Positions 9,540 to 53,927 of a stretch of 64,000 nucleotides of DNA are shown here, one piece after another (the stretch's first letter is position 1; the number at the start of each line of letters is the position of its first letter). The stretch is taken from assembly GCF_023195515.1 (NCBI RefSeq), contig NZ_JALPKR020000002.1:4999001-5063000 (forward strand). The letters are read 5' to 3'. Position numbers and translations under genes: made by a program. A model generated the notes under the pieces. It was not told the origin of the DNA, did no database searches, and saw only the letters and a program-made list of their open reading frames with translations. This DNA comes from Variovorax sp. S12S4 (GTDB taxonomy: Bacteria > Pseudomonadota > Gammaproteobacteria > Burkholderiales > Burkholderiaceae_C).

Positions 9540-9610
9540 TTGGGCCAGAAAGTTTGAATCTGGCCCAAATTCTAATCCCAATCTGGCCTGACTTTCAAGA
9601 TCTGGCCAGA
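9539..9610 (-). promoter_or_regulatory. Toxin-antitoxin promoter with TCTGGCC operator array
   Basis: On the minus strand a -35 box TTGAAA (9598-9593) and a -10 box TAGAAT (9574-9569) lie 18 bases apart. TCTGGCC or its complement occurs at 9543-9549, 9559-9565, 9582-9588 and as the self-complementary TCTGGCCAGA at 9601-9610. The first two form an 11-bp perfect inverted repeat (9539-9549 / 9559-9569) reaching the antitoxin start codon. This suggests cooperative autorepression by the antitoxin-toxin complex. Confidence 0.7.
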
Positions 9611-9703: not shown

Positions 9704-11173
9704 TTACTCGGCGCGGTAGTTCGGCGCTTCCTTGGTGATCTGCACGTCGTGCACGTGGCTCTCACGAATACCGGCGGTGGTGATCTCGACGAACTCGGCC
9801 TTGTTCTTCATCTCTTCGATGGTGGCGCAGCCGCAGTAGCCCATGCTGGCACGCAAGCCGCCCGACATCTGGTACACGATGGAAACCATCGAGCCCTTGT
9901 ACGGCACACGGCCTTCGATGCCCTCAGGCACCAGCTTGTCGGCATTGGGATTGCCGGTGGTCGACTCCTGGAAGTAGCGGTCGGCACTGCCCTGCTGCAT
10001 GGCGCCAATGGAGCCCATGCCGCGGTAGCTCTTGTAGCTGCGGCCCTGGAACAGAACGATCTCGCCGGGGGCTTCTTCGGTGCCCGCGAACATGCCACCC
10101 ATCATCACGGTGCTTGCGCCCGCGGCAATGGCCTTGGCGATGTCGCCCGAATAGCGGATACCGCCGTCCGCGATCAGCGGAATGCCGGTGCCTTGCAGCG
10201 CGGTGGCCACGTTGTCCACGGCCATGATCTGCGGCACGCCCACGCCGGCAACGATGCGCGTGGTGCAGATAGAACCCGGGCCGATGCCGACCTTGACGGC
10301 GTCCGCGCCGGCGTCAGCCAGCGCACGCGCTGCGTCGCCGGTGGCAATGTTGCCGCCGATCACGTCGACCTGCGGATAGTTCTTCTTGACCCAGCGCACG
10401 CGCTCGATCACGCCGGCGCTGTGGCCGTGCGCGGTGTCGACCACGATGGCATCGACACCGGCCTTGACCAGCGTCTCGACGCGTTCTTCGGTGCCCGCAC
10501 CCACGCCGACTGCCGCGCCCACGCGCAGGCGGCCGCTCGGGTCGCGCGCTGCATTGGGAAAGCTGGTCTGCTTGGTGATGTCCTTGACGGTGATCAGGCC
10601 CTTGAGCTCCCACGCACTGTTGATGACCAGCAGGCGTTCGAGCTTGTGCTTGTTGAGCAGCGCCTTGGCTTCAGCAAGGGTGGTGCCGTCGGGCACCGTA
10701 ATGAGCTTTTCGCGCGGCGTCATGATCTCGCTCACCGGCACGTCCAGGCGGCTCTCGAAGCGCAGGTCGCGCCCCGTGACGATGCCCACCACCTTGCCGC
10801 CGTCGAGCACCGGAAAGCCCGAGATGCCCAGCTCGTCGGACAGCTGCATGACCTGCAGCACCGTGTGCGTGGGTGTGATCACCACCGGGTCGCGCAGCAC
10901 GCCGGATTCGTAGCGCTTCACCTTGGCAACCTGCGCAGCCTGCTCGGCCGCGGTGAAGTTCTTGTGCACGATGCCGATGCCGCCTTCTTGCGCAATGGCG
11001 ATCGCGAGGCGAGCCTCGGTCACGGTGTCCATCGCGGCGGAAACCAGCGGCAGATTGAGCGCGATGTTGCGGGAGAAGCGGGTGGCGAGGGAGGTGTCCT
11101 TGGGCAGGACCTGGGAGAACGCTGGCACCAACAACACGTCGTCGAAGGTGAGCGCTTTGCCGAGAAGGCGCAT
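9704..11173 (-). CDS. guaB: Inosine-5'-monophosphate dehydrogenase
   Basis: 489 aa from the ATG at 11173 ([20 protein letters not shown]). Oxidises IMP to XMP with NAD+, the rate-limiting step to GMP. The TIM barrel is interrupted by a CBS pair at about residues 95-205. The catalytic cysteine lies in [12 protein letters not shown] near residue 305, followed by the mobile flap. A GGAG ribosome site (complement of 11182-11185) and a -10-like TACAAT (11200-11195) precede it. guaA lies downstream beyond the toxin-antitoxin unit. The reading frame is open far upstream into rnfH, but that is antisense noise. Confidence 0.97.
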
Positions 11174-11353
11174 GGGTGAAGCTCCAAAAGACGGATTGTA
11201 ACGATGCCCGGTACTTACCCGCCCCCTGAGGGGCTTCGACCGATATCGGGCGCGGGTTGCGAGAGCGTCAAACGTCGCCAATTCCCAACTCGGCGGCGTG
11301 GAAAGCGTGGGCCTTTCGTGTTGCAAAACGTAAGGCCCAGCTAAACTCGCCGC

Positions 11354-11881
11354 ATGAAATTCGCGCATTGGCTCGTACTGGGATGTGTTTGCCTGCTGCC
11401 GCTGTCGGCCAGCGCGCAATGGCAATGGATCGACAAGAGCGGCAAGAAGGTCTTCAGCGACCAGGCACCGCCGCCCGATATTCCCGAGAAGAACATCCTG
11501 CGCCGCGCGGGCTCGCCGCCCCCGGCCCGCACCGGTTTTGGCTCGGCTCCCGCCGAGGGTGCCGCCTCCGACGAGGCAGCCGCCCCCAAGGCCCGCGAAG
11601 CCGCCGCAGCGCCCAAGCCGCCGGCGGTCGACAAGGAGCTCGAGGAAAAGACCAAGAAGGCACAGGCTGAAGAAAAAGCCAAGCAGGCCGCCGAGGCTGA
11701 GAAAAACGCCAAGATCAAGGCCGAGAACTGCGAGCGCGCACGCCAGGGCAAGGCCACGTTCGATAGCGGCATCCGCGTGGCCAAGGTCAACGCCAAGGGC
11801 GAGCGCGAAATCATGGACGATGCCGCTCGCGCCGCCGAGCAGAAGCGCCTTCAGTCGATCATCCAGAGCGACTGCAAGTAG
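11354..11881 (+). CDS. DUF4124 domain protein, exported
   Basis: 175 aa. Signal peptide at residues 1-21 ([21 protein letters not shown]), then a DUF4124 module ([22 protein letters not shown]) of the kind found at the N-terminus of many proteobacterial envelope proteins. After it comes a long Lys/Ala/Glu-rich, probably helical or coiled segment (about 85-140), then a C-terminal piece with [21 protein letters not shown] and a final Cys. Function unknown, likely periplasmic. Single gene with a possible promoter TTGCAA...TAAACT at 11321-11347, convergent with rnfH. Confidence 0.8.
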
Positions 11882-11891
11882 TCTCGAAGAC

Positions 11892-12226
11892 TCAGTAGCC
11901 GGCCTTGCCGCCCTTGCGGCGGTTCGCAAAAGGCCGGTACCCCGCGCGCCCTGCCGCTGAAAGCGCTCGCGGCGCGCCACCTTGGGGTCGACTGCCAAGG
12001 GCCGGCATAACTCGATGCGGTCGCCGTCCTTGAGCAGCTGGTTCCATTCGACTTCCCTGCCCCAGATTCCGGGCGTCATGGCCTGACGCCAATCCAGTTG
12101 CGGGAAGCGCTGCGCGAGGTCGCTGGCCTTCACCGCATCGTCCACGGTGGCCTCGGGCGCCAGCCGCAGCACTTGCTCGAACACCTCGCGCGGTGCGGGC
12201 GAGCAGCTCAGCGTGACTTCGATCAT
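11892..12226 (-). CDS. rnfH: RnfH-family ubiquitin-like protein, frameshifted near its C-terminus
   Basis: Starting at the ATG at 12226 ([20 protein letters not shown]), about 94 residues of an RnfH/UPF0125 beta-grasp protein can be read to [12 protein letters not shown]. The expected ending ([15 protein letters not shown] then TGA at 11892) is in a different frame. One missing base in the G-rich stretch around 11938-11945 explains the switch. Without it the frame has no stop until the end of guaB. The start overlaps the ratA stop (ATGA), the usual ratA-rnfH pairing. Function of RnfH is unclear. The lesion may be a sequencing error. Confidence 0.7.
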
Positions 12227-46291: not shown

Positions 46292-49200
46292 TCAGGCCTG
46301 CAGCTGGGCCCAGGCTTTGTCCAGCCGCTTGATGCTGACTGGCTGTGGCGTGCGCAGTTCCTGCGCGAAAAAGCTCACGCGAAGCTCTTCGAGCAGCCAG
46401 CGGAATTCGAGCATGCGATCGTCCACCACGCCCTTGCGCTCCGCCACCAGGCGCCAGTAGCGCTGCTCCTGCGGGCGCAGTTCGGCCAGCTTGGCGGCGT
46501 CGCGCGCGGGGTCGGCACGGAGCTTGTCGAGTCGCAGCACGATCGCCTTGAGGTACCGCGCGAAATGCTGCAACTGCGTCCACGGCGCATCGGCAATGAA
46601 CCGCTTGCCCACCAGGCGCTGCAACTGCTGGGCGGCGTCCTGCACGGCTTCGGGCTGGATCTTGGTGTCCTTGATCTTGCGTGCGGCTGCCGCGTATTCG
46701 ATCAGGATGGTCGATGCAAGCCGCGCCACCTCGTTCGCAATCAGCGTGAGCCGGCCCCGGCCCTCTTCGAGCCGGCGCTTGAATGCAAACTCGTCGGTGG
46801 GCAGCGGCTCCTGCAGAAACGCGCGGTCGATCGCCACGTCGATGATCTGCGTGCGCAACTCTTCCGATGTGCCGAGCGGCATGTAGGCCACCGCCATCTT
46901 CTGCAGATCGGGGATGTTCTTCTCGAGGTACTTGAGCGCGTCTTTCAGCTGCAGCGCAAACAGCCTGCGCAGGCCGGCGCGGTGCTTTGCGGCGGCCACG
47001 GCGGGCTCATCGAACACTTCGATGGTGACGGCATCGCCCTCGTCGCGCAACGCCGGAAACCCGATGAGCGACTGCGATCCGCGGCGCACTTCCATCAGTT
47101 CTGGCAGCTCGCCGAAGCTCCAGCTCGTGTAGCGCTGGCCGGCGGGCAAGCTCGGCGCGGCCTGTGCCGGCGCGGCGGCGTTGCCCTTGGCTTGCGCGCG
47201 CCCATCGGCACCATCCGCCGGCTTTCGCTCCGCGGATGCCTTGACGTTGAGCCCCGCCAACGCCTGAAAGGCACCGCGCGCCTGCGCGCCCAGTTCGGCC
47301 TTGAGCGCCCCCAGGTTGCGCCCCATGCCAAGCTGGCGCCCATGCTCGTCCACGATGCGCAGGTTCATGAACAGGTGCGGCGGCAGCATGTCGAGCTTGA
47401 AGTCGGCGCGCTTCACGTCGATGCTCGTGGCATCGCGCACGCGCTTGAGCAGCACGTCGGTCAGCGAGCCGTGGCCGAACACCTCGGGCGCCGAGAGTTC
47501 TTCCGCCAGCTTTGCCGCCGAATCGGGCAGTGGCACCAACCTGGAGCGCGGGCGCTGCGGCAGGCTCTTGAGCAGCGCCTGGATCTTGTCCTTGAGCATG
47601 CCGGTGACCAGCCATTCGCAGCGCTCTTCGCTCACCTGGTTGAGCACGAAAAGCGGCACGCTCACCGTGAGACCGTCCTTCGCGTCGCCCGGCTCGTGCA
47701 GGTAGCTCGCGGCACAATCGACACCGCCGAGCCGCAGCGTGGGCGGAAACGACTGCGTGGTAATGCCTGCCGCCTGGTGGCGCATCAGCTCTTCGCGCGT
47801 CAGGTACAGCAGGCGCGGCTGCTCCTTCGAGGCATGGCGGTACCAGTTCTCGAAGCTGATGCCGCTCGCCACATCGGCGGGCAACTGCGCGTCGTAGAAG
47901 GCGAAGATCAGCTCTTCATCGACCAGCACGTCTTGCCGGCGCGCCTTGTGTTCCAGCCCCTCGACCTCGCGCACCAGCTTGCGATTGGCCGCAAGGAACG
48001 GAAACTTGCTTTCCCACTGCCCGCCAACCAGCGCCTCGCGAATGAAGATCTCGCGCGCCGCCACCGGATCGACCTTGGTGAAATCGACGCGGCGCCCGCT
48101 GTAGACCACGAGCCCGTACAGCGTTGCGCGCTCGAGCGCCGAAACCTGTGCGCCCTTCTTCTCCCAGTGCGGATCGAGCAGTTGCTTCTTCAGCAGATGG
48201 CCGGCCACCTGTTCGAGCCACTGCGGCTCGATGTTGGCAATGCCTCGGCCGAAGAGCCGCGTGGTCTCGACCAGCTCGGCCGCAACGATCCAGCGGCCCG
48301 GCTTTTTCTTCAGGTGCGCGCCCGGATGGCGGTAGAACTTGATGCCGCGCGCACCCAGGTACGCCTCGTCGTCTTCCAGCTTCCAGCCCACGTTGCCGAG
48401 CAGGCCCGCCAGCATCGACAGGTGCAGAGGTTCGTAGCCCGCGGGCTCGGCGTTGATGCGCCACTTGTGCTCGGTCACGACCGTGAGCAGCTGCGAATGG
48501 ATGTCGCGCCATTCGCGCACGCGGCGGATGTTGATGAAGTTCTGTCGCAGCAACTGCTCGTACTGGCGGTTGCTCAGCTTGTGGGTGTCGCCGTGCCCGC
48601 CGCGCGCATCCGCGATCCATTTCCACAGGCGCAGGTAGCCGCTGAACTCGCTCTTCTCGTCGTCGAATTTCGAATGTGCCTGGTCGGCCTGCTGCTGCGC
48701 ATCCATCGGGCGGTCGCGCACGTCCTGCACACTGAGGGCCGATGCGATGACCAGCACCTCTTCTAACGCGCCGCGTGTGCGCGCCTCCAGGATCATCCGG
48801 CCGACGCGCGGGTCGAGCGGCAGCTTGGCCAGCTCGGCACCCGTGGCCGTGAGCTCGTTGGCGTCGTCCACCGCGCCCAGTTCGTTCAGCAGCTGGTAGC
48901 CGTCGGCAATCGCACGCGGCGAAGGTGCTTCGAGAAATGGAAAGCGCGCCACGTCGCCCAGGCGCAGCGACTTCATGCGCAAGATGACGCCGGCGAGCGA
49001 AGAACGCAGGATCTCGGGATCGGTAAAGCGCGGCCGGCCTTCGAAATCCTTCTCGTCGTAAAGCCGGATGCAGATGCCGTTGGCCACACGGCCGCAACGC
49101 CCCGCGCGCTGGTTGGCCGCGGCCTGGCTGATCGGCTCAACCAGCAATTGCTCGACCTTGCTGCGGAAGCTGTAGCGCTTGACGCGCGCCGTGCCTGTGT

Positions 49201-50239
49201 CGATCACGTAGCGGATGCCCGGCACGGTGAGCGAGGTTTCGGCCACGTTGGTGGCCAGCACAATGCGCCGGCCCGTGTGGCCGTCGAAGATACGGTCCTG
49301 CTCGGGGCCCGACAGCCGTGCGAACAGCGGCAGCACCTCGGCGTTGCGCAGCAGCGGCTGGTGGCTCAGGTGGCGGCGCAGGTGGTCAGCGGCCTCGCGG
49401 ATCTCGCGCTCGCCGGGCAGAAAAACGAGGATGTCGCCCGCGTTGTGCGGATCGCGCCAGAGCTCGTCGACGCCATCGGCAATGGCGTCGTTCAGGTCAT
49501 GCTCGCGCGACTCCTCGAACGGCCGATAGCGCTGCTCGACTGGGAAAGTACGGCCCGACACGTAAATGATCGGCGCAGGTCCCTTGCCCGAGGCAAAGTG
49601 CTGCGCAAAGCGGTCGGCATCGATGGTGGCCGAGGTCACGATCACCTTCAGGTCGGGCCGGCGCGGAAGAATTTCGCGCAGGTAGCCCAGCAGGAAGTCG
49701 ATGTTCAGTGAGCGCTCGTGCGCCTCGTCGATGATCAGCGTGTCGTAGGCCTTGAGCAGCGGATCGGTCTGCGTTTCCGCCAGCAGGATGCCGTCGGTCA
49801 TGAGCTTGACCGACGCGTCGCGGCTCAGCCGATCCTGAAAGCGCACCTTGAAGCCGACCACATCGCCTAGCGGCGTTTTCAGTTCTTCGGCAATGCGCTT
49901 GGCCACCGAGCTTGCCGCAATGCGGCGCGGCTGCGTGTGGCCGATGAGTCGGCCCTTGCCCGGCGGCGCATTGAGCTTGCCGCGGCCGAGCGCCAGCGCG
50001 ATCTTCGGAAGCTGGGTGGTCTTGCCCGAGCCCGTTTCGCCGCAGACGATCACGACCTGGTGCGCCTCGATGGCGGCCATGATTTCATCGCGCCGGCCGG
50101 AGACCGGGAGCGATTCGGGAAAGTCGATGCGCAAGGGAGCGGAAGGTGTCGTGGTCGTCAAGGGAAAGCTATTCGGAGAAGACGCGGCAGGCAAACCGTC
50201 GATTATCGGCGCGCGCCGCCACTGTTGCACGGCTCCCAC
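46292..50239 (-). CDS. hrpA: ATP-dependent RNA helicase HrpA
   Basis: 1315 aa from a GTG at 50239; a TTG at 50161 (LTTTTPSAPLRIDFPESLPV) may be the real start, removing 26 unconserved residues. DEAH-box helicase: Walker A GETGSGKTT at 67-75, DEAH at 169-172, SATIDAD, then the helicase C, HA2, OB and the long HrpA-specific C-terminal region to LDKAWAQLQA. Length is close to E. coli HrpA (about 1300). Acts on mRNA and rescues stalled ribosomes. No clear ribosome site decides between the starts. Divergent from the AAA+/M41 gene. Confidence 0.92.
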   Translation of the reverse strand: MGAVQQWRRAPIIDGLPAASSPNSFPLTTTTPSAPLRIDFPESLPVSGRRDEIMAAIEAHQVVIVCGETGSGKTTQLPKIALALGRGKLNAPPGKGRLIGHTQPRRIAASSVAKRIAEELKTPLGDVVGFKVRFQDRLSRDASVKLMTDGILLAETQTDPLLKAYDTLIIDEAHERSLNIDFLLGYLREILPRRPDLKVIVTSATIDADRFAQHFASGKGPAPIIYVSGRTFPVEQRYRPFEESREHDLNDAIADGVDELWRDPHNAGDILVFLPGEREIREAADHLRRHLSHQPLLRNAEVLPLFARLSGPEQDRIFDGHTGRRIVLATNVAETSLTVPGIRYVIDTGTARVKRYSFRSKVEQLLVEPISQAAANQRAGRCGRVANGICIRLYDEKDFEGRPRFTDPEILRSSLAGVILRMKSLRLGDVARFPFLEAPSPRAIADGYQLLNELGAVDDANELTATGAELAKLPLDPRVGRMILEARTRGALEEVLVIASALSVQDVRDRPMDAQQQADQAHSKFDDEKSEFSGYLRLWKWIADARGGHGDTHKLSNRQYEQLLRQNFINIRRVREWRDIHSQLLTVVTEHKWRINAEPAGYEPLHLSMLAGLLGNVGWKLEDDEAYLGARGIKFYRHPGAHLKKKPGRWIVAAELVETTRLFGRGIANIEPQWLEQVAGHLLKKQLLDPHWEKKGAQVSALERATLYGLVVYSGRRVDFTKVDPVAAREIFIREALVGGQWESKFPFLAANRKLVREVEGLEHKARRQDVLVDEELIFAFYDAQLPADVASGISFENWYRHASKEQPRLLYLTREELMRHQAAGITTQSFPPTLRLGGVDCAASYLHEPGDAKDGLTVSVPLFVLNQVSEERCEWLVTGMLKDKIQALLKSLPQRPRSRLVPLPDSAAKLAEELSAPEVFGHGSLTDVLLKRVRDATSIDVKRADFKLDMLPPHLFMNLRIVDEHGRQLGMGRNLGALKAELGAQARGAFQALAGLNVKASAERKPADGADGRAQAKGNAAAPAQAAPSLPAGQRYTSWSFGELPELMEVRRGSQSLIGFPALRDEGDAVTIEVFDEPAVAAAKHRAGLRRLFALQLKDALKYLEKNIPDLQKMAVAYMPLGTSEELRTQIIDVAIDRAFLQEPLPTDEFAFKRRLEEGRGRLTLIANEVARLASTILIEYAAAARKIKDTKIQPEAVQDAAQQLQRLVGKRFIADAPWTQLQHFARYLKAIVLRLDKLRADPARDAAKLAELRPQEQRYWRLVAERKGVVDDRMLEFRWLLEELRVSFFAQELRTPQPVSIKRLDKAWAQLQA

Positions 50240-50264
50240 AATGCGCGGCTGCCACGCAACAGGC

Positions 50265-50306
50265 GGAGTAAATAGTCTTTACTCCCGCGCAACCCGCCGC
50301 TACGAT
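50265..50306 (+). promoter_or_regulatory. Promoter with AT-rich dyad over the -35, upstream of the AAA+/M41 gene
   Basis: Perfect inverted repeat GGAGTAAA (50265-50272) / TTTACTCC (50278-50285) around TAGTC. Its right arm supplies a -35 TTTACT (50278-50283), which lies 17 bases from a -10 TACGAT (50301-50306). Start of transcription would fall near 50313. The rest of 50240-50557 holds only a possible 30-codon frame and no other gene that I can see. Confidence 0.5.
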
Positions 50307-50313
50307 TGCGCCC

Positions 50314-50406
50314 ATGACCTCCTTCCTCGTACCCCCCACTTTGCGCGGCCGCCGCGCAAGCCATGCCCCGGTGCATGGCGGGGTCGAGCTGCCGCGTCCG
50401 GCCTGA
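50314..50406 (+). CDS. Possible 30-codon leader frame
   Basis: ATG at 50314, 8 bases after the -10 box, so it would be leaderless or nearly so. It encodes MTSFLVPPTLRGRRASHAPV plus ten more residues and ends 151 bases before the AAA+/M41 start. No family, no ribosome site. It could be a regulatory upstream frame or simply noise. Confidence 0.25.
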   Translation: MTSFLVPPTLRGRRASHAPVHGGVELPRPA

Positions 50407-50557
50407 AGAAGAAGCCCGCGCGTCCGTTGCACCGGACGCCCTGCTCGCTTCCACGGCCGAAGCGCAGCAACCGACCCTCACACAGCATCTGCATTGCCGC
50501 CTTCTCGCCCGCGAGGGAGCGGCGGCTTCTTCATTTCCGTTTTTTTCAAGAATTTCC

Positions 50558-52540
50558 ATGTCCAACGACATTCATCCAGACCTGCATGCGGCGCTCTCCG
50601 AGCGGACGCGCCATCTGCAGGCAGTTGCCCAGGCGCTCAAGACCGAGCTCTTCGGCATCGACGACATCATCGACCGCGTGATCGATTCACTGCGGGCGTG
50701 GTACGTGTTTCCGCAACTCATCAGCCGCCCGGTCATCGTGTGCCTGTGGGGCCTCACGGGCACCGGCAAGACGCAGCTGGTGCGCAGGCTCGCGCAGCAC
50801 CTGGGCTTTTACGACCGCTTCATCGAAGTGCAGATGGACGGCTTCAGCCACGGCTCGGGCTACAGCAGCCGGGGTTCGATTTCGGCCATGCTGGCCGAAT
50901 CGGGCATCGACGAAGGCACGCCGGGCATCCTGGTGCTCGACGAGTTCCAGCGCTTTCGCACGCTCGAGAGCAACGGCAACGACGCCAGGGTCGAGCGCTA
51001 CCAGGACGTGTGGGCGCTGCTCTCCGACGGCCGGCTGCCGCCGGCGCTGTCGATGCTCGGCGAAATCGAGGCCTCGCTCGCCCAGGCCGAATACGAGCAA
51101 GACCGCGACGGCCCGCCCGACAAGAAGAAGGCGAAGAAGCGAAAGCTCCACCTTGCCCCCTGGGAAGCGCAGGAAATCAAGCGCTGCCTCAAGCTGCCCG
51201 AAACGCTGCTGCAGATCATGGCCTGGAAGCCTTCCGAGGTGCATGCACGGCTGCGCGCCTTCCGCGACACGCAGCAGAGTTGGGAGACCGACTACAGCAA
51301 GCTGCTGGTGTTCGTCTCGGGCAACCTCGACGAGATGTATGCCGAAACCGCGCGGCGCGTCGAAGACTGCGACACCGACGCCGACATCTTCCATGCGCTG
51401 ACGAAGAAGCTCTCGCTGATCGATGTGAAGAAGGCGCTGGCCGAACGCTTCAAGCCCGAACAGGTGGCGCGGCTGGGCAACAACCACGTCATCTACCCGT
51501 CGTTCAGCCGGGCCACCTATGTGCAGCTGATTCTTTCGATCTGCGACCGCTACGTGGAAGAGATCCGTGAAAGCTCGGGTGTGCGCTTCATGCTCGAGTC
51601 GAGCGTGTACGAGCAGATCTACGCCAACGCCGTTTTCCCGGCACAGGGCACGCGCCCGCTGTTCTCCTCGATCCACGCGATCCTGAGCGCGACGCTGGTC
51701 AACGCGGCACTCTGGGCGCTGGAGCAAGGCGCGGGCGGTACAGAGCCGGTGTGGCTGTCGCTTGAAACGACGGGCGACAAGGCTTGCATCGTGGCTCGGT
51801 ACCGGGAAGGCAAGCGCGAGGTGCGCCGCAGCTTTGCGGTCACGCTCGAGCTCAACCGGCTCAAGCAGCGCTCGAACGAAGACTTTCGGGCCCTGCTGGC
51901 GGTGCACGAGGCCGGCCACGGCGTGGCCTACGGCCTGCTGTTCGGCCGCGCGCCGCAGGAGATCAAGATCAACGTCGCGTCTTTCGAGGGCGGCTACAAC
52001 AGCTACGAAGACCGCAAGGCATGGTCGCGGCAGAACCTGCGCGACCGTATCTGCGTCGGTCTGGCGGGCCGGGCCGCGGAGCAACTGGTGTTCGGCGAAC
52101 AGGCCTGCACCTCGGGTGCGTCGCAAGACTTCCGCCAGGCCACCGCTTTCGCCGCGCAGTACGTGCGCCATTACGCGTTCGGCACGCGGCTGAGCCGCAC
52201 CGACGTGGCCAACGACGCCGAGGACAACCTCAACACCGACCTGAAGGCCACCAACCCGGAGATCGAAGCGCTGCTCGCGCAGGAGCATGCACGCGCGCTG
52301 GCGCTGCTCGAGGCGCACACGCCGGCCTTCATGGCGGTGGTCGATGCGCTGATGCGCGAAGGCTCCGTGGCGCCGTCGCAACTGGCCGAAATGCTCGACC
52401 TGCCCGCCGACGCGGGCGAATCGACCGACGCCTATGCCGCGCTGCTGGCCACCTTCAGGGCACGCAAGCTGCCCGGTTCGGAGCCTCCCGAGGCGCCGGG
52501 CGGCCCCGGCGCCGCCCGGCTGCTGCGCGCGTTGGCCTGA
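50558..52540 (+). CDS. Soluble HSP100-like AAA+ ATPase fused to an M41 (FtsH-type) zinc peptidase
   Basis: 660 aa from the ATG at 50558; the frame is open upstream to an ATG at 50363, but that part is not conserved-looking. AAA+ part: Walker A GLTGTGKT (65-72), Walker B ILVLDEF (124-130), sensor-1-like SGN (254-256), an arginine-finger-like FKPEQVARLG (298-307) and sensor 2 GTRPL (364-368), a Clp/HSP100 pattern rather than FtsH's. A 120-residue insert with a Lys-rich run (189-196) sits after Walker B. Peptidase part: HEAGH (H450, E451, H454), GLAGRAAEQLVFG (501-513) and the third zinc ligand D524 in TSGASQDF, as in FtsH. No membrane helix or signal. Probably an unfoldase-protease; targets unknown. 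Confidence 0.8.
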   Translation: MSNDIHPDLHAALSERTRHLQAVAQALKTELFGIDDIIDRVIDSLRAWYVFPQLISRPVIVCLWGLTGTGKTQLVRRLAQHLGFYDRFIEVQMDGFSHGSGYSSRGSISAMLAESGIDEGTPGILVLDEFQRFRTLESNGNDARVERYQDVWALLSDGRLPPALSMLGEIEASLAQAEYEQDRDGPPDKKKAKKRKLHLAPWEAQEIKRCLKLPETLLQIMAWKPSEVHARLRAFRDTQQSWETDYSKLLVFVSGNLDEMYAETARRVEDCDTDADIFHALTKKLSLIDVKKALAERFKPEQVARLGNNHVIYPSFSRATYVQLILSICDRYVEEIRESSGVRFMLESSVYEQIYANAVFPAQGTRPLFSSIHAILSATLVNAALWALEQGAGGTEPVWLSLETTGDKACIVARYREGKREVRRSFAVTLELNRLKQRSNEDFRALLAVHEAGHGVAYGLLFGRAPQEIKINVASFEGGYNSYEDRKAWSRQNLRDRICVGLAGRAAEQLVFGEQACTSGASQDFRQATAFAAQYVRHYAFGTRLSRTDVANDAEDNLNTDLKATNPEIEALLAQEHARALALLEAHTPAFMAVVDALMREGSVAPSQLAEMLDLPADAGESTDAYAALLATFRARKLPGSEPPEAPGGPGAARLLRALA

Positions 52541-52580
52541 GCTGCGCGAACCTTCGTTCAAGAATGCACAATCACGCTCC

Positions 52581-53927
52581 ATGTCCACCGTTTTCAACTT
52601 CACCTTCGTGCCCTGGTTCCGCTCGGTCGCGCCCTACATCCACACGCACCGCGGTAAGACTTTCGTGGTCGCCCTGGCGGGTGAGGCGATTGCGGCGGGC
52701 AAGCTGCAGAACATTGCGCAAGACCTGGCGCTGATCCAGAGCATGGGCGTCAAGATCGTGCTGGTGCACGGCTTCCGCCCGCAGGTCAACGAGCAGCTCG
52801 CCGCCAAGGGGCACGAGGCGCGCTATTCGCACGGCATCCGCATCACCGACGAGGTGGCGCTCGATTCCGCCCAGGAGGCCGCCGGGCAGTTGCGCTACGA
52901 GATCGAAGCCGCATTCAGCCAGGGCCTGCCGAACACGCCAATGGCCGGCTCTACGGTGCGCGTGATCTCGGGCAACTTCATTACGGCGCGGCCCATCGGC
53001 GTGGTCGACGGCGTGGACTTCAAGCATTCGGGCCTGGTGCGCAAGGTGGATGCGGTGGGCATCCGCCGCACGCTCGACTTCGGCGCCATGGTGCTGATGT
53101 CGCCCTTCGGCTTCTCGCCCACCGGCGAGGCGTTCAACCTGACGATGGAAGAAGTTGCGACCAGCGTGGCCATTTCGATCCAGGCCGACAAGCTGATCTT
53201 CCTGACCGAAATTCCGGGCATCCGCATCGACAGCGAACTGCCCGAGAGCGAAGACAACCCCATCGACACCGAGCTGCCGCTCGCGGCGGCCGAGAAGCTG
53301 CTGGCCTCGCTGCCGCCGCCGCAAAAACCCACCGATACCGCGTTTTACCTGCAGCACTGCGTAAAGGCGTGCAAGGCCGGCGTGGAGCGCAACCACATCC
53401 TGCCGTTTGCGCTCGACGGCTCGCTGCTGCTCGAGGTGTATGTGCACGACGGCGTCGGCACCATGGTCATCGACGAGAAGCTCGAGAGCCTGCGCGAAGC
53501 CACGGTGGACGACATCGGCGGCATCCTGCAGCTGATCGAGCCCTTCGAGCGCGACGGCACCCTGGTGAAGCGCGACCGCACCGAAATCGAGCGCGACGTG
53601 GGCCACTACACGGTCATCGAGCATGACGGGGTGATCTTCGGCTGTGCGGCGCTCTACCCCTACCCCGAGGCGCGCACGGCCGAGATGGCGGCGCTGACGG
53701 TATCGCCCCAGTCGCAATCGCAAGGCGACGGCGAGCGCATCCTCAAGCGCATCGAGCACCGCGCCAAGGCCATGGGGCTGGAAAGCATCTTCGTGCTCAC
53801 CACCCGCACCATGCACTGGTTCTTGAAGCGCGGCTTCCAGCAAGTCAACCCCGACTGGCTGCCCGAAGCCCGCAAGCGCAAGTACAACTGGGACCGCAAG
53901 AGCCAGGTTCTGGTCAAGAAAATCTGA
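52581..53927 (+). CDS. argA: N-acetylglutamate synthase
   Basis: 448 aa from the ATG at 52581. First step of arginine synthesis: acetyl-CoA plus glutamate. N-terminal amino-acid kinase-like domain (about 20-290; MGVKIVLVHGFRPQVNEQLA) that binds arginine for feedback control, and a C-terminal GNAT domain (about 300-440; VVIDEKLESLREATVDDIGG region, LTTRTMHWFLKRGF). Classical ArgA length. It follows the AAA+/M41 gene after 40 bases and could share its transcript. Confidence 0.93.
   Translation: MSTVFNFTFVPWFRSVAPYIHTHRGKTFVVALAGEAIAAGKLQNIAQDLALIQSMGVKIVLVHGFRPQVNEQLAAKGHEARYSHGIRITDEVALDSAQEAAGQLRYEIEAAFSQGLPNTPMAGSTVRVISGNFITARPIGVVDGVDFKHSGLVRKVDAVGIRRTLDFGAMVLMSPFGFSPTGEAFNLTMEEVATSVAISIQADKLIFLTEIPGIRIDSELPESEDNPIDTELPLAAAEKLLASLPPPQKPTDTAFYLQHCVKACKAGVERNHILPFALDGSLLLEVYVHDGVGTMVIDEKLESLREATVDDIGGILQLIEPFERDGTLVKRDRTEIERDVGHYTVIEHDGVIFGCAALYPYPEARTAEMAALTVSPQSQSQGDGERILKRIEHRAKAMGLESIFVLTTRTMHWFLKRGFQQVNPDWLPEARKRKYNWDRKSQVLVKKI

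Follow-up and report, generated by a model that had tools for sequence, protein, structure and literature searches.

The 64,000-nucleotide stretch of Variovorax sp. S12S4 analyzed here (contig NZ_JALPKR020000002.1, positions 4,999,001 to 5,063,000; hereafter the window, with coordinates counted from its first base) harbors a plus-strand gene at positions 50558 to 52540, the 660-amino-acid (aa) product of which, followed by a stop codon, joins an AAA+ ATPase module to a zinc peptidase of family M41. The mechanically delimited open reading frame (ORF) begins earlier, at position 50363, and the start at 50558 was chosen because the closest homologues begin MSNDIH. From its sequence, and with a probability of roughly 0.73, the product is predicted to be a cytosolic, single-chain ATP-dependent metalloprotease in which a motor of the type found in the second AAA domain (D2) of HSP100 proteins is coupled to the M41 peptidase. 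At E ≤ 1e-3, 1215 of 7994 scored candidates matched this hybrid protease, the weak ones among which may be FtsH, and query coverage was at least 89% in 118 of the 120 homologue matches listed; such numbers, coupled with near-full coverage, argue that the architecture is not a product of chance. The best named matches are from Variovorax (98% to Variovorax sp. DXTD-1).

Domain architecture and conserved residues

The AAA+ module spans approximately residues 7 to 402. Its large subdomain (approximately residues 7 to 260; 50576 to 51337), as delineated by Pfam, profile comparisons and a model of the motor, contains the Walker A motif GLTGTGKT (residues 65 to 72; 50750 to 50773), the Walker B motif GILVLDE (residues 123 to 129; 50924 to 50944) and the sensor-1 residue N256 (51323 to 51325). 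Profile comparisons also defined an arginine-finger region with a small domain of the HSP100 D2 type (residues 286 to 402; 51413 to 51763), within which FKPEQVARLG (residues 298 to 307; 51449 to 51478) supplies the candidate arginine finger R305 and aligns with FRPEFLNRID of the ClpB encoded by the same genome, while GTRPL (residues 364 to 368; 51647 to 51661) supplies the candidate sensor-2 residue R366 and aligns with GARPL of that ClpB. The interval from the DGRL helix to sensor 1 holds a mostly helical, family-specific insert (approximately residues 161 to 244; 51038 to 51289), identified by comparison with ClpB and from helices predicted by the model at residues 164 to 183, 201 to 211, 217 to 221 and 225 to 237. 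This interval measures 95 residues, as opposed to 19 in the genome's own ClpB, i.e., approximately 76 extra residues, with some 10 further extra residues, counted by eye, ahead of the DGRL helix; the 120-residue insert after Walker B given in a preliminary description of the locus was thus overstated. The insert is peculiar to this family and possibly has a role in substrate choice.

The zinc peptidase region (approximately residues 440 to 615) matches Pfam Peptidase_M41 at residues 443 to 609 (51884 to 52384; 69.4 bits, with the cut-off at 29.9; E value of 4.7e-19) and, like the motor features, is encoded on the plus strand. It carries the zinc-binding and catalytic motif HEAGH (H450, E451 and H454; 51905 to 51919), followed by GLAGRAAEQL and by TSGASQD, in which D524 (52127 to 52129) is the candidate third zinc ligand. 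The functions attached to the Walker, sensor, arginine-finger and zinc motifs are those usual in these protein families. This half resembles FtsH only: a profile of residues 440 to 660, searched against the window's own genome, retrieved FtsH at 60.8 bits and, apart from it, a single match with an E value of 0.88, and the C-terminal half of an 11-member profile matched FtsH structures.

Conservation was assessed across 113 rows, comprising 112 loci (some of which represent the same genome drawn from two collections) and the window. R305, R366, H450, E451 and H454 were present in all 113, N256 and D524 in 112, and K71, D128 and E129 in 110, the missing residues being due to exception rows which are fragments. 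Among 67 viral relatives described below, D128, N256, R305 and R366 were kept in all, K71 and E129 in 66, and H450, E451, H454 and D524 in 65; the two relatives devoid of the zinc residues lack the M41 half altogether. The preliminary description of an FtsH-type M41 domain with all three zinc ligands is consequently upheld, and a search for their loss among homologues returned no such case in a protein with an intact M41 half.

Identity of the motor and absence of a membrane anchor

Once the AAA+ module had been split into a P-loop part and an arginine-finger/small-domain part, the latter (residues 286 to 402) scored 93.8% against a set of HSP100/Clp second AAA domains and 0.55% against FtsH AAA domains, a separation which was obtained only after this division. 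A profile of residues 1 to 402, searched against the window's own genome, retrieved ClpB as the best match (40.7 bits; the next other gene at 19.3), with the genome's FtsH unreported at an E value of ≤1 with filters off. The N-terminal half of the 11-member profile matched ClpB and ClpC structures, with its best stretch at residues 293 to 402 (E value of 4.6e-9), and gave weaker matches to Msp1 and Lon (E value of 2.8e-4 for Lon). The full-length model placed FtsH entries first in the VIA and Foldseek tables, many with a root-mean-square deviation above 11 Å over two domains; because this ranking is driven by the M41 half, the motor was folded and searched separately, upon which all 50 rows among the Foldseek matches listed were HSP100 proteins. 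FtsH was not among these matches, all of Clp type, an absence which alone excludes nothing. A precomputed label, AAA_2 or ClpB_D2-small, is attached to many distant relatives, and ClpB_D2-small exceeded its cut-off in three of seven relatives scanned, not including the window's protein itself.

Several observations weigh against the reading preferred here. The generic AAA model PF00004 (residues 61 to 145, 31.7 bits) is the best Pfam AAA match of the window's protein, AAA_2 being absent from the Pfam matches listed; the P-loop part is nearly tied between HSP100 D2 and FtsH (94.6 versus 93.4), and hhalign scores for the whole module are tied as well (88.4 over 262 columns versus 88.8 over 94). 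The GYVG pore loop of the genome's own ClpB was not found by sequence comparison; 70 of 75 aligned members have a W or Y in column 101 or 102, which may represent the pore-loop aromatic residue. AlphaFold2 (AF2) models are of moderate quality, with mean predicted local distance difference test (pLDDT) values of 74.9 and 73.4, and the arginine-finger loop falls below 50, so that the geometry of the ring remains predicted. The Pfam result and the two ties would be expected of a diverged FtsH which had shed its membrane anchor and whose own AAA domain had drifted toward HSP100 by convergence. Set against the near-complete separation at residues 286 to 402, the silence of the genome's FtsH in the profile search, the Clp-type structural matches listed for the motor alone and the ClpB_D2-small matches in three relatives, such an origin is judged highly improbable. 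The preliminary suspicion of a Clp/HSP100-like motor accordingly holds for the arginine-finger and small-domain half, and the P-loop part and the module taken whole lie almost equally close to FtsH.

Whole-protein models point to neither parent. TIGR01241, the NCBIfam FtsH model, matched residues 434 to 605 only, at 61.5 bits against a curated cut-off of 600, and ClpA, ClpB and ClpV reached 33.4, 24.9 and 19.3 bits (ClpA on the N-terminal part) against cut-offs of 993, 1232 and 885. No N-domain was matched by Pfam in this protein of 660 aa with a single AAA module.

FtsH has two N-terminal transmembrane helices. Hydropathy was evaluated in 19-residue windows at a threshold of 1.6, with eight FtsH-type proteins as controls. 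No window of the hybrid protein reached 1.6, as opposed to two peaks in each of seven controls, namely the genome's own FtsH and six plasmid-encoded proteins (from Caballeronia, Euzebya, Stanieria, Vescimonas, Aneurinibacillus and Pseudomonas aeruginosa), the last of which (locus L160, 1687 to 3579) is an FtsH-like protein encoded near an rpoH gene. The eighth control, from a Rhizobium tumorigenes plasmid (L162, 1624 to 3552), combines a classical AAA domain with M41 and yields no peak; it is perhaps another, independent soluble M41 protease, and it hints, in favor of the diverged-FtsH alternative, that an anchor may be lost. Anchored close homologues were likewise sought, and only scattered single windows above 1.6 were encountered: six of the 75 aligned members show one, in every case between residues 478 and 615, as do 4 of the 68 rows that make up the viral set (the 67 viral relatives and the window's protein) and 10 of 113 bacterial rows. 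The sole N-terminal peak, at residue 4 of L094, lies inside an over-extended ORF start, and no N-terminal anchor is common to the members of any of these three sets. The split domain profiles and the hydropathy results together bear out the preliminary view that an M41 peptidase has been joined, anchor-free, to a different AAA+ clade.

Given how HSP100 and FtsH proteins work, conservation of the Walker, sensor, arginine-finger and zinc residues leads us to predict ATP-driven threading of substrates into an M41 chamber. Modules of the HSP100 D2 type would assemble as a hexameric ring, the pore of which would grip a substrate and unfold it at the expense of ATP, feeding it to the M41 zinc-peptidase domains that these chains also bear. 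The helical insert near sensor 1 might select the substrates, and in many Burkholderiales the small basic protein described below might act as an adaptor, a regulator or a substrate.

Genomic context and distribution in bacteria and phages

In the window, the hybrid gene is located between a minus-strand gene at positions 46292 to 50239, presumably encoding an hrpA-type DEAH helicase (ORF list and locus comparison), and a plus-strand gene at positions 52581 to 53927, which is presumably of argA type and whose start was picked by eye inside an ORF spanning 52434 to 53927. The same position between a divergent hrpA-type gene and one of argA type is found in Variovorax, Acidovorax and some others, and other genera carry the gene in different locations. 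In three Thiothrix-type genomes (L156, L157 and L158) it follows genes that are presumably hisA and hisF, and in two of the three a gene we take to be hisE-like is next, with presumed tatA/tatC-like genes also downstream. Composition showed no trace of recent acquisition, as the GC content at third codon positions of the gene (0.877) falls inside the range of five neighboring genes (0.833 to 0.931).

Relatives were recovered from Variovorax, Ramlibacter, Rhodoferax, Polaromonas and Xenophilus, then from Thiothrix and Thiolinea, and from Bacteroidota (names attached to P0207, P0253 and P0258), the distant members of a 75-row alignment being 28 to 34% identical to the window's protein. In a sample of the window's family, 28 of 250 genomes, from 19 of 126 genera, carried the gene, as did 1 of 300, 4 of 370 and 5 of 397 genomes sampled from its order, class and phylum, respectively; the genome that contains the window is part of all four counts. 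For seven of the 30 match rows of the family sample, a stop inside the match is reported, G787 (L034 and L037) carries a split copy and G902 (L035) a fragment. Such copies imply that the gene can be lost, and, together with its patchy distribution, that it is dispensable, which also tells against the reading preferred here. A mobile plasmid gene was considered and rejected, as 20 plasmid records matched and none over 80% of the query. Patchiness in bacteria and presence in phages would also suit a bacterial defence protein taken up by phages as a counter-defence, or the reverse, as might the weak PADLOC matches (best E value of 4.3e-6 over 38 residues). These matches cover the AAA part only, leaving the M41 half uncovered among those listed, and in the loci read, where no systematic search for nearby defence genes was made, the gene adjoins housekeeping-looking neighbors (presumed hrpA/argA or hisF); with the plasmid result added, a role in defence is scarcely credible.

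A conserved small basic protein is encoded on the same strand, just upstream of the hybrid protease, in 55 of 80 named Burkholderiales loci (none of 21 from Variovorax or Ramlibacter versus 55 of 59 other bacterial loci), lying within 245 nucleotides of the protease match in 54 of the 55. Examples occur at 9550 to 9834 of L065, 9700 to 9990 of L087 and 9607 to 9909 of L115 (alignment A5). The protein measures approximately 75 aa from its MSA start, and bears a net charge of +8 to +17 in the 89- to 116-aa stretches read; five members compared with Pfam, NCBIfam and PHROG gave nothing significant (best E value of 0.018). Within the 250-genome family sample, the small gene was present in 31 genomes and the protease in 28, both being present in 24 and adjacent in 22, an overlap far beyond chance (hypergeometric probability of 2.6e-23, with genomes counted as independent regardless of kinship). 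Four genomes, including the window's, carry the protease without the small gene, and seven the reverse; in G788, G865 and G898 (L254, L256 and L246), which carry the small gene, the fetched flank contained no piece of the protease. The small gene was not detected in the window's own genome at E ≤ 1e-4, nor was it seen when positions 50240 to 50572 were read by eye in all three forward frames, and two genomes of the same genus (G766 and G851) gave only a weaker match on another contig. Its profile matched neither in the Thiothrix-type loci nor in the vicinity of the viral copies, except weakly in L167 and L168.

Where it is present, the small protein may be an adaptor, regulator or substrate of the protease. 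Its enrichment in genomes with the protease (24 of 28, adjacent in 22, against 31 of 250 overall), the large family-specific insert, the lack of an N-domain match and the patchy distribution would all be compatible with a dedicated enzyme which remodels or cleaves one target, with the upstream protein as that target, or its adaptor, in Burkholderiales. Since the small gene does not accompany the protease in any of the 21 Variovorax/Ramlibacter loci, the Thiothrix-type loci or the window's genome, occurs without it in seven genomes, and the full unfoldase residue set is kept, such dedication is considered unlikely.

A scan of IMG/VR yielded 67 distinct loci (L167 to L233) on contigs of up to 548 kb, with both halves in one ORF in 65. 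The remaining two, L228 and L229 (4968 to 6419), encode a 483-aa motor only, and their fetched flanks contained no M41 ORF. L231 harbors, near the hybrid gene, a second ORF (9935 to 11941; 668 aa) with a weak motor-profile match of 40 bits and no M41. Hallmark searches took 50 of the 67 loci and a search for 16S rRNA took 40, some records being near copies: Terminase_6N was found on 16 of 50 records and the T4-type Gp23 capsid family on 18 (17 over the cut-off; none of 14 cellular controls), so that 20 records show at least one hallmark and 30 show neither, and 16S rRNA was found on none of the 40, a weak test. On L172, a record of 378,912 bases with both hallmarks, a phage clamp-loader gene (2.1e-61 to phrog_168) extends at its end into the start of the hybrid gene. 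In the quick tree described below, L167 and L168 (14.7 and 15.6 kb) are placed among the Burkholderiales, and this position, with their weak small-protein match, suggests that they may be host DNA. PHROG yielded no match spanning both halves, and three queries of INPHARED retrieved 11, 9 and 8 records, with query coverage never above 80%. A neighbor gene shared among phages was sought in ORFs of at least 60 aa in the fetched flanks and rejected, the commonest family occurring in 8 of 52 distinct viral loci, and these eight all belonging to one quick-tree clade.

The quick tree comprised 85 rows (L209, L228, L229 and repeats left out) and a careful tree 47, the latter also without L167, L168 and most long-branched viral rows, with the long L206 kept; most rows marked "envbac" are metagenome proteins, three with Bacteroidota names. 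In the careful tree, nine Burkholderiales rows form one group (support of 100/100), which lies inside a set of 15 rows (100/99) completed by six viral ones; of these six, L172 and L179 bear both hallmarks, L181 Gp23 only and L169 and L170 neither, the sixth, L174, being outside the hallmark searches. The Bacteroidota and Thiothrix rows form a second group (100/100). A single clade of all bacteria was rejected by the approximately unbiased (AU) test, whose p value (p-AU of 0.0089) is indicative, as the test followed sight of the quick tree. Huge phages, along with two distinct lineages of bacteria, carry the family. The preliminary description mentioned neither the relatives in Thiothrix, Bacteroidota and huge phages nor the small upstream gene. 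Two captures from phages are the simplest reading of this unrooted tree, with one transfer in each direction also possible, and the direction of exchange would accordingly be deduced rather than read from it. It is an evenly balanced proposition that the hybrids form a separate class of AAA+ protease which is part of the huge T4-like phage gene pool, was taken up by bacteria on two or more occasions and gained a dedicated small basic partner in Burkholderiales.

Relation to known ATP-dependent proteases

Members of the family carry the labels AAA family ATPase, cell division protease FtsH, M41 peptidase, signal recognition particle GTPase and hypothetical protein, among which labels such as the FtsH and GTPase names become questionable. 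No HSP100-M41 fusion was described in the titles and abstract openings surveyed, a corpus without preprints and with few subscription papers. One study (PMC5095350) reportedly used engineering to circumvent the membrane anchor of YME1L, which is insoluble. If active, the hybrid would provide a naturally soluble M41 machine for mechanistic studies, and would indicate that motor and peptidase are swappable in evolution and that huge phages own a protein-degradation machine.

In the familiar bacterial ATP-dependent proteases, namely ClpXP/AP/CP, HslUV, Lon, FtsH and the proteasome, motor clade and peptidase come in fixed combinations. With FtsH/HflB and the mitochondrial i-AAA and m-AAA proteases, the hybrid shares family M41, HExxH with an Asp third ligand, and the union of motor and peptidase in one chain; unlike them, it has no hydropathy peaks, a small domain of the HSP100 D2 type and an extra helical insert. 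The AAA+ fold and D2-type small domain are shared with the second AAA domain of ClpB, ClpC and ClpA and with the single-ring ClpX, HslU and Skd3, and the arginine-finger motif F-[RK]-P-E-x(3)-R and the G-x-RP sensor 2 are common to HSP100 proteins and the hybrid. Class I HSP100/Clp proteins have two AAA modules and an N-domain, whereas the hybrid has one module, no N-domain match, a C-terminal zinc peptidase and no GYVG pore loop, and no separate partner of the ClpP/HslV type was seen for it. Like Lon, to which its motor profile has a weak match, it is predicted to be soluble with motor and peptidase in one chain; the peptidase of Lon is of the serine-lysine type, whereas that of the hybrid is an M41 zinc metalloprotease. 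Each half is already known, and what is new is that the two are combined, free of an anchor, in a single chain which is conserved in Burkholderiales, the Thiothrix group, Bacteroidota and huge phages, a family which breaks the FtsH rule by placing the M41 peptidase on an HSP100-type motor.
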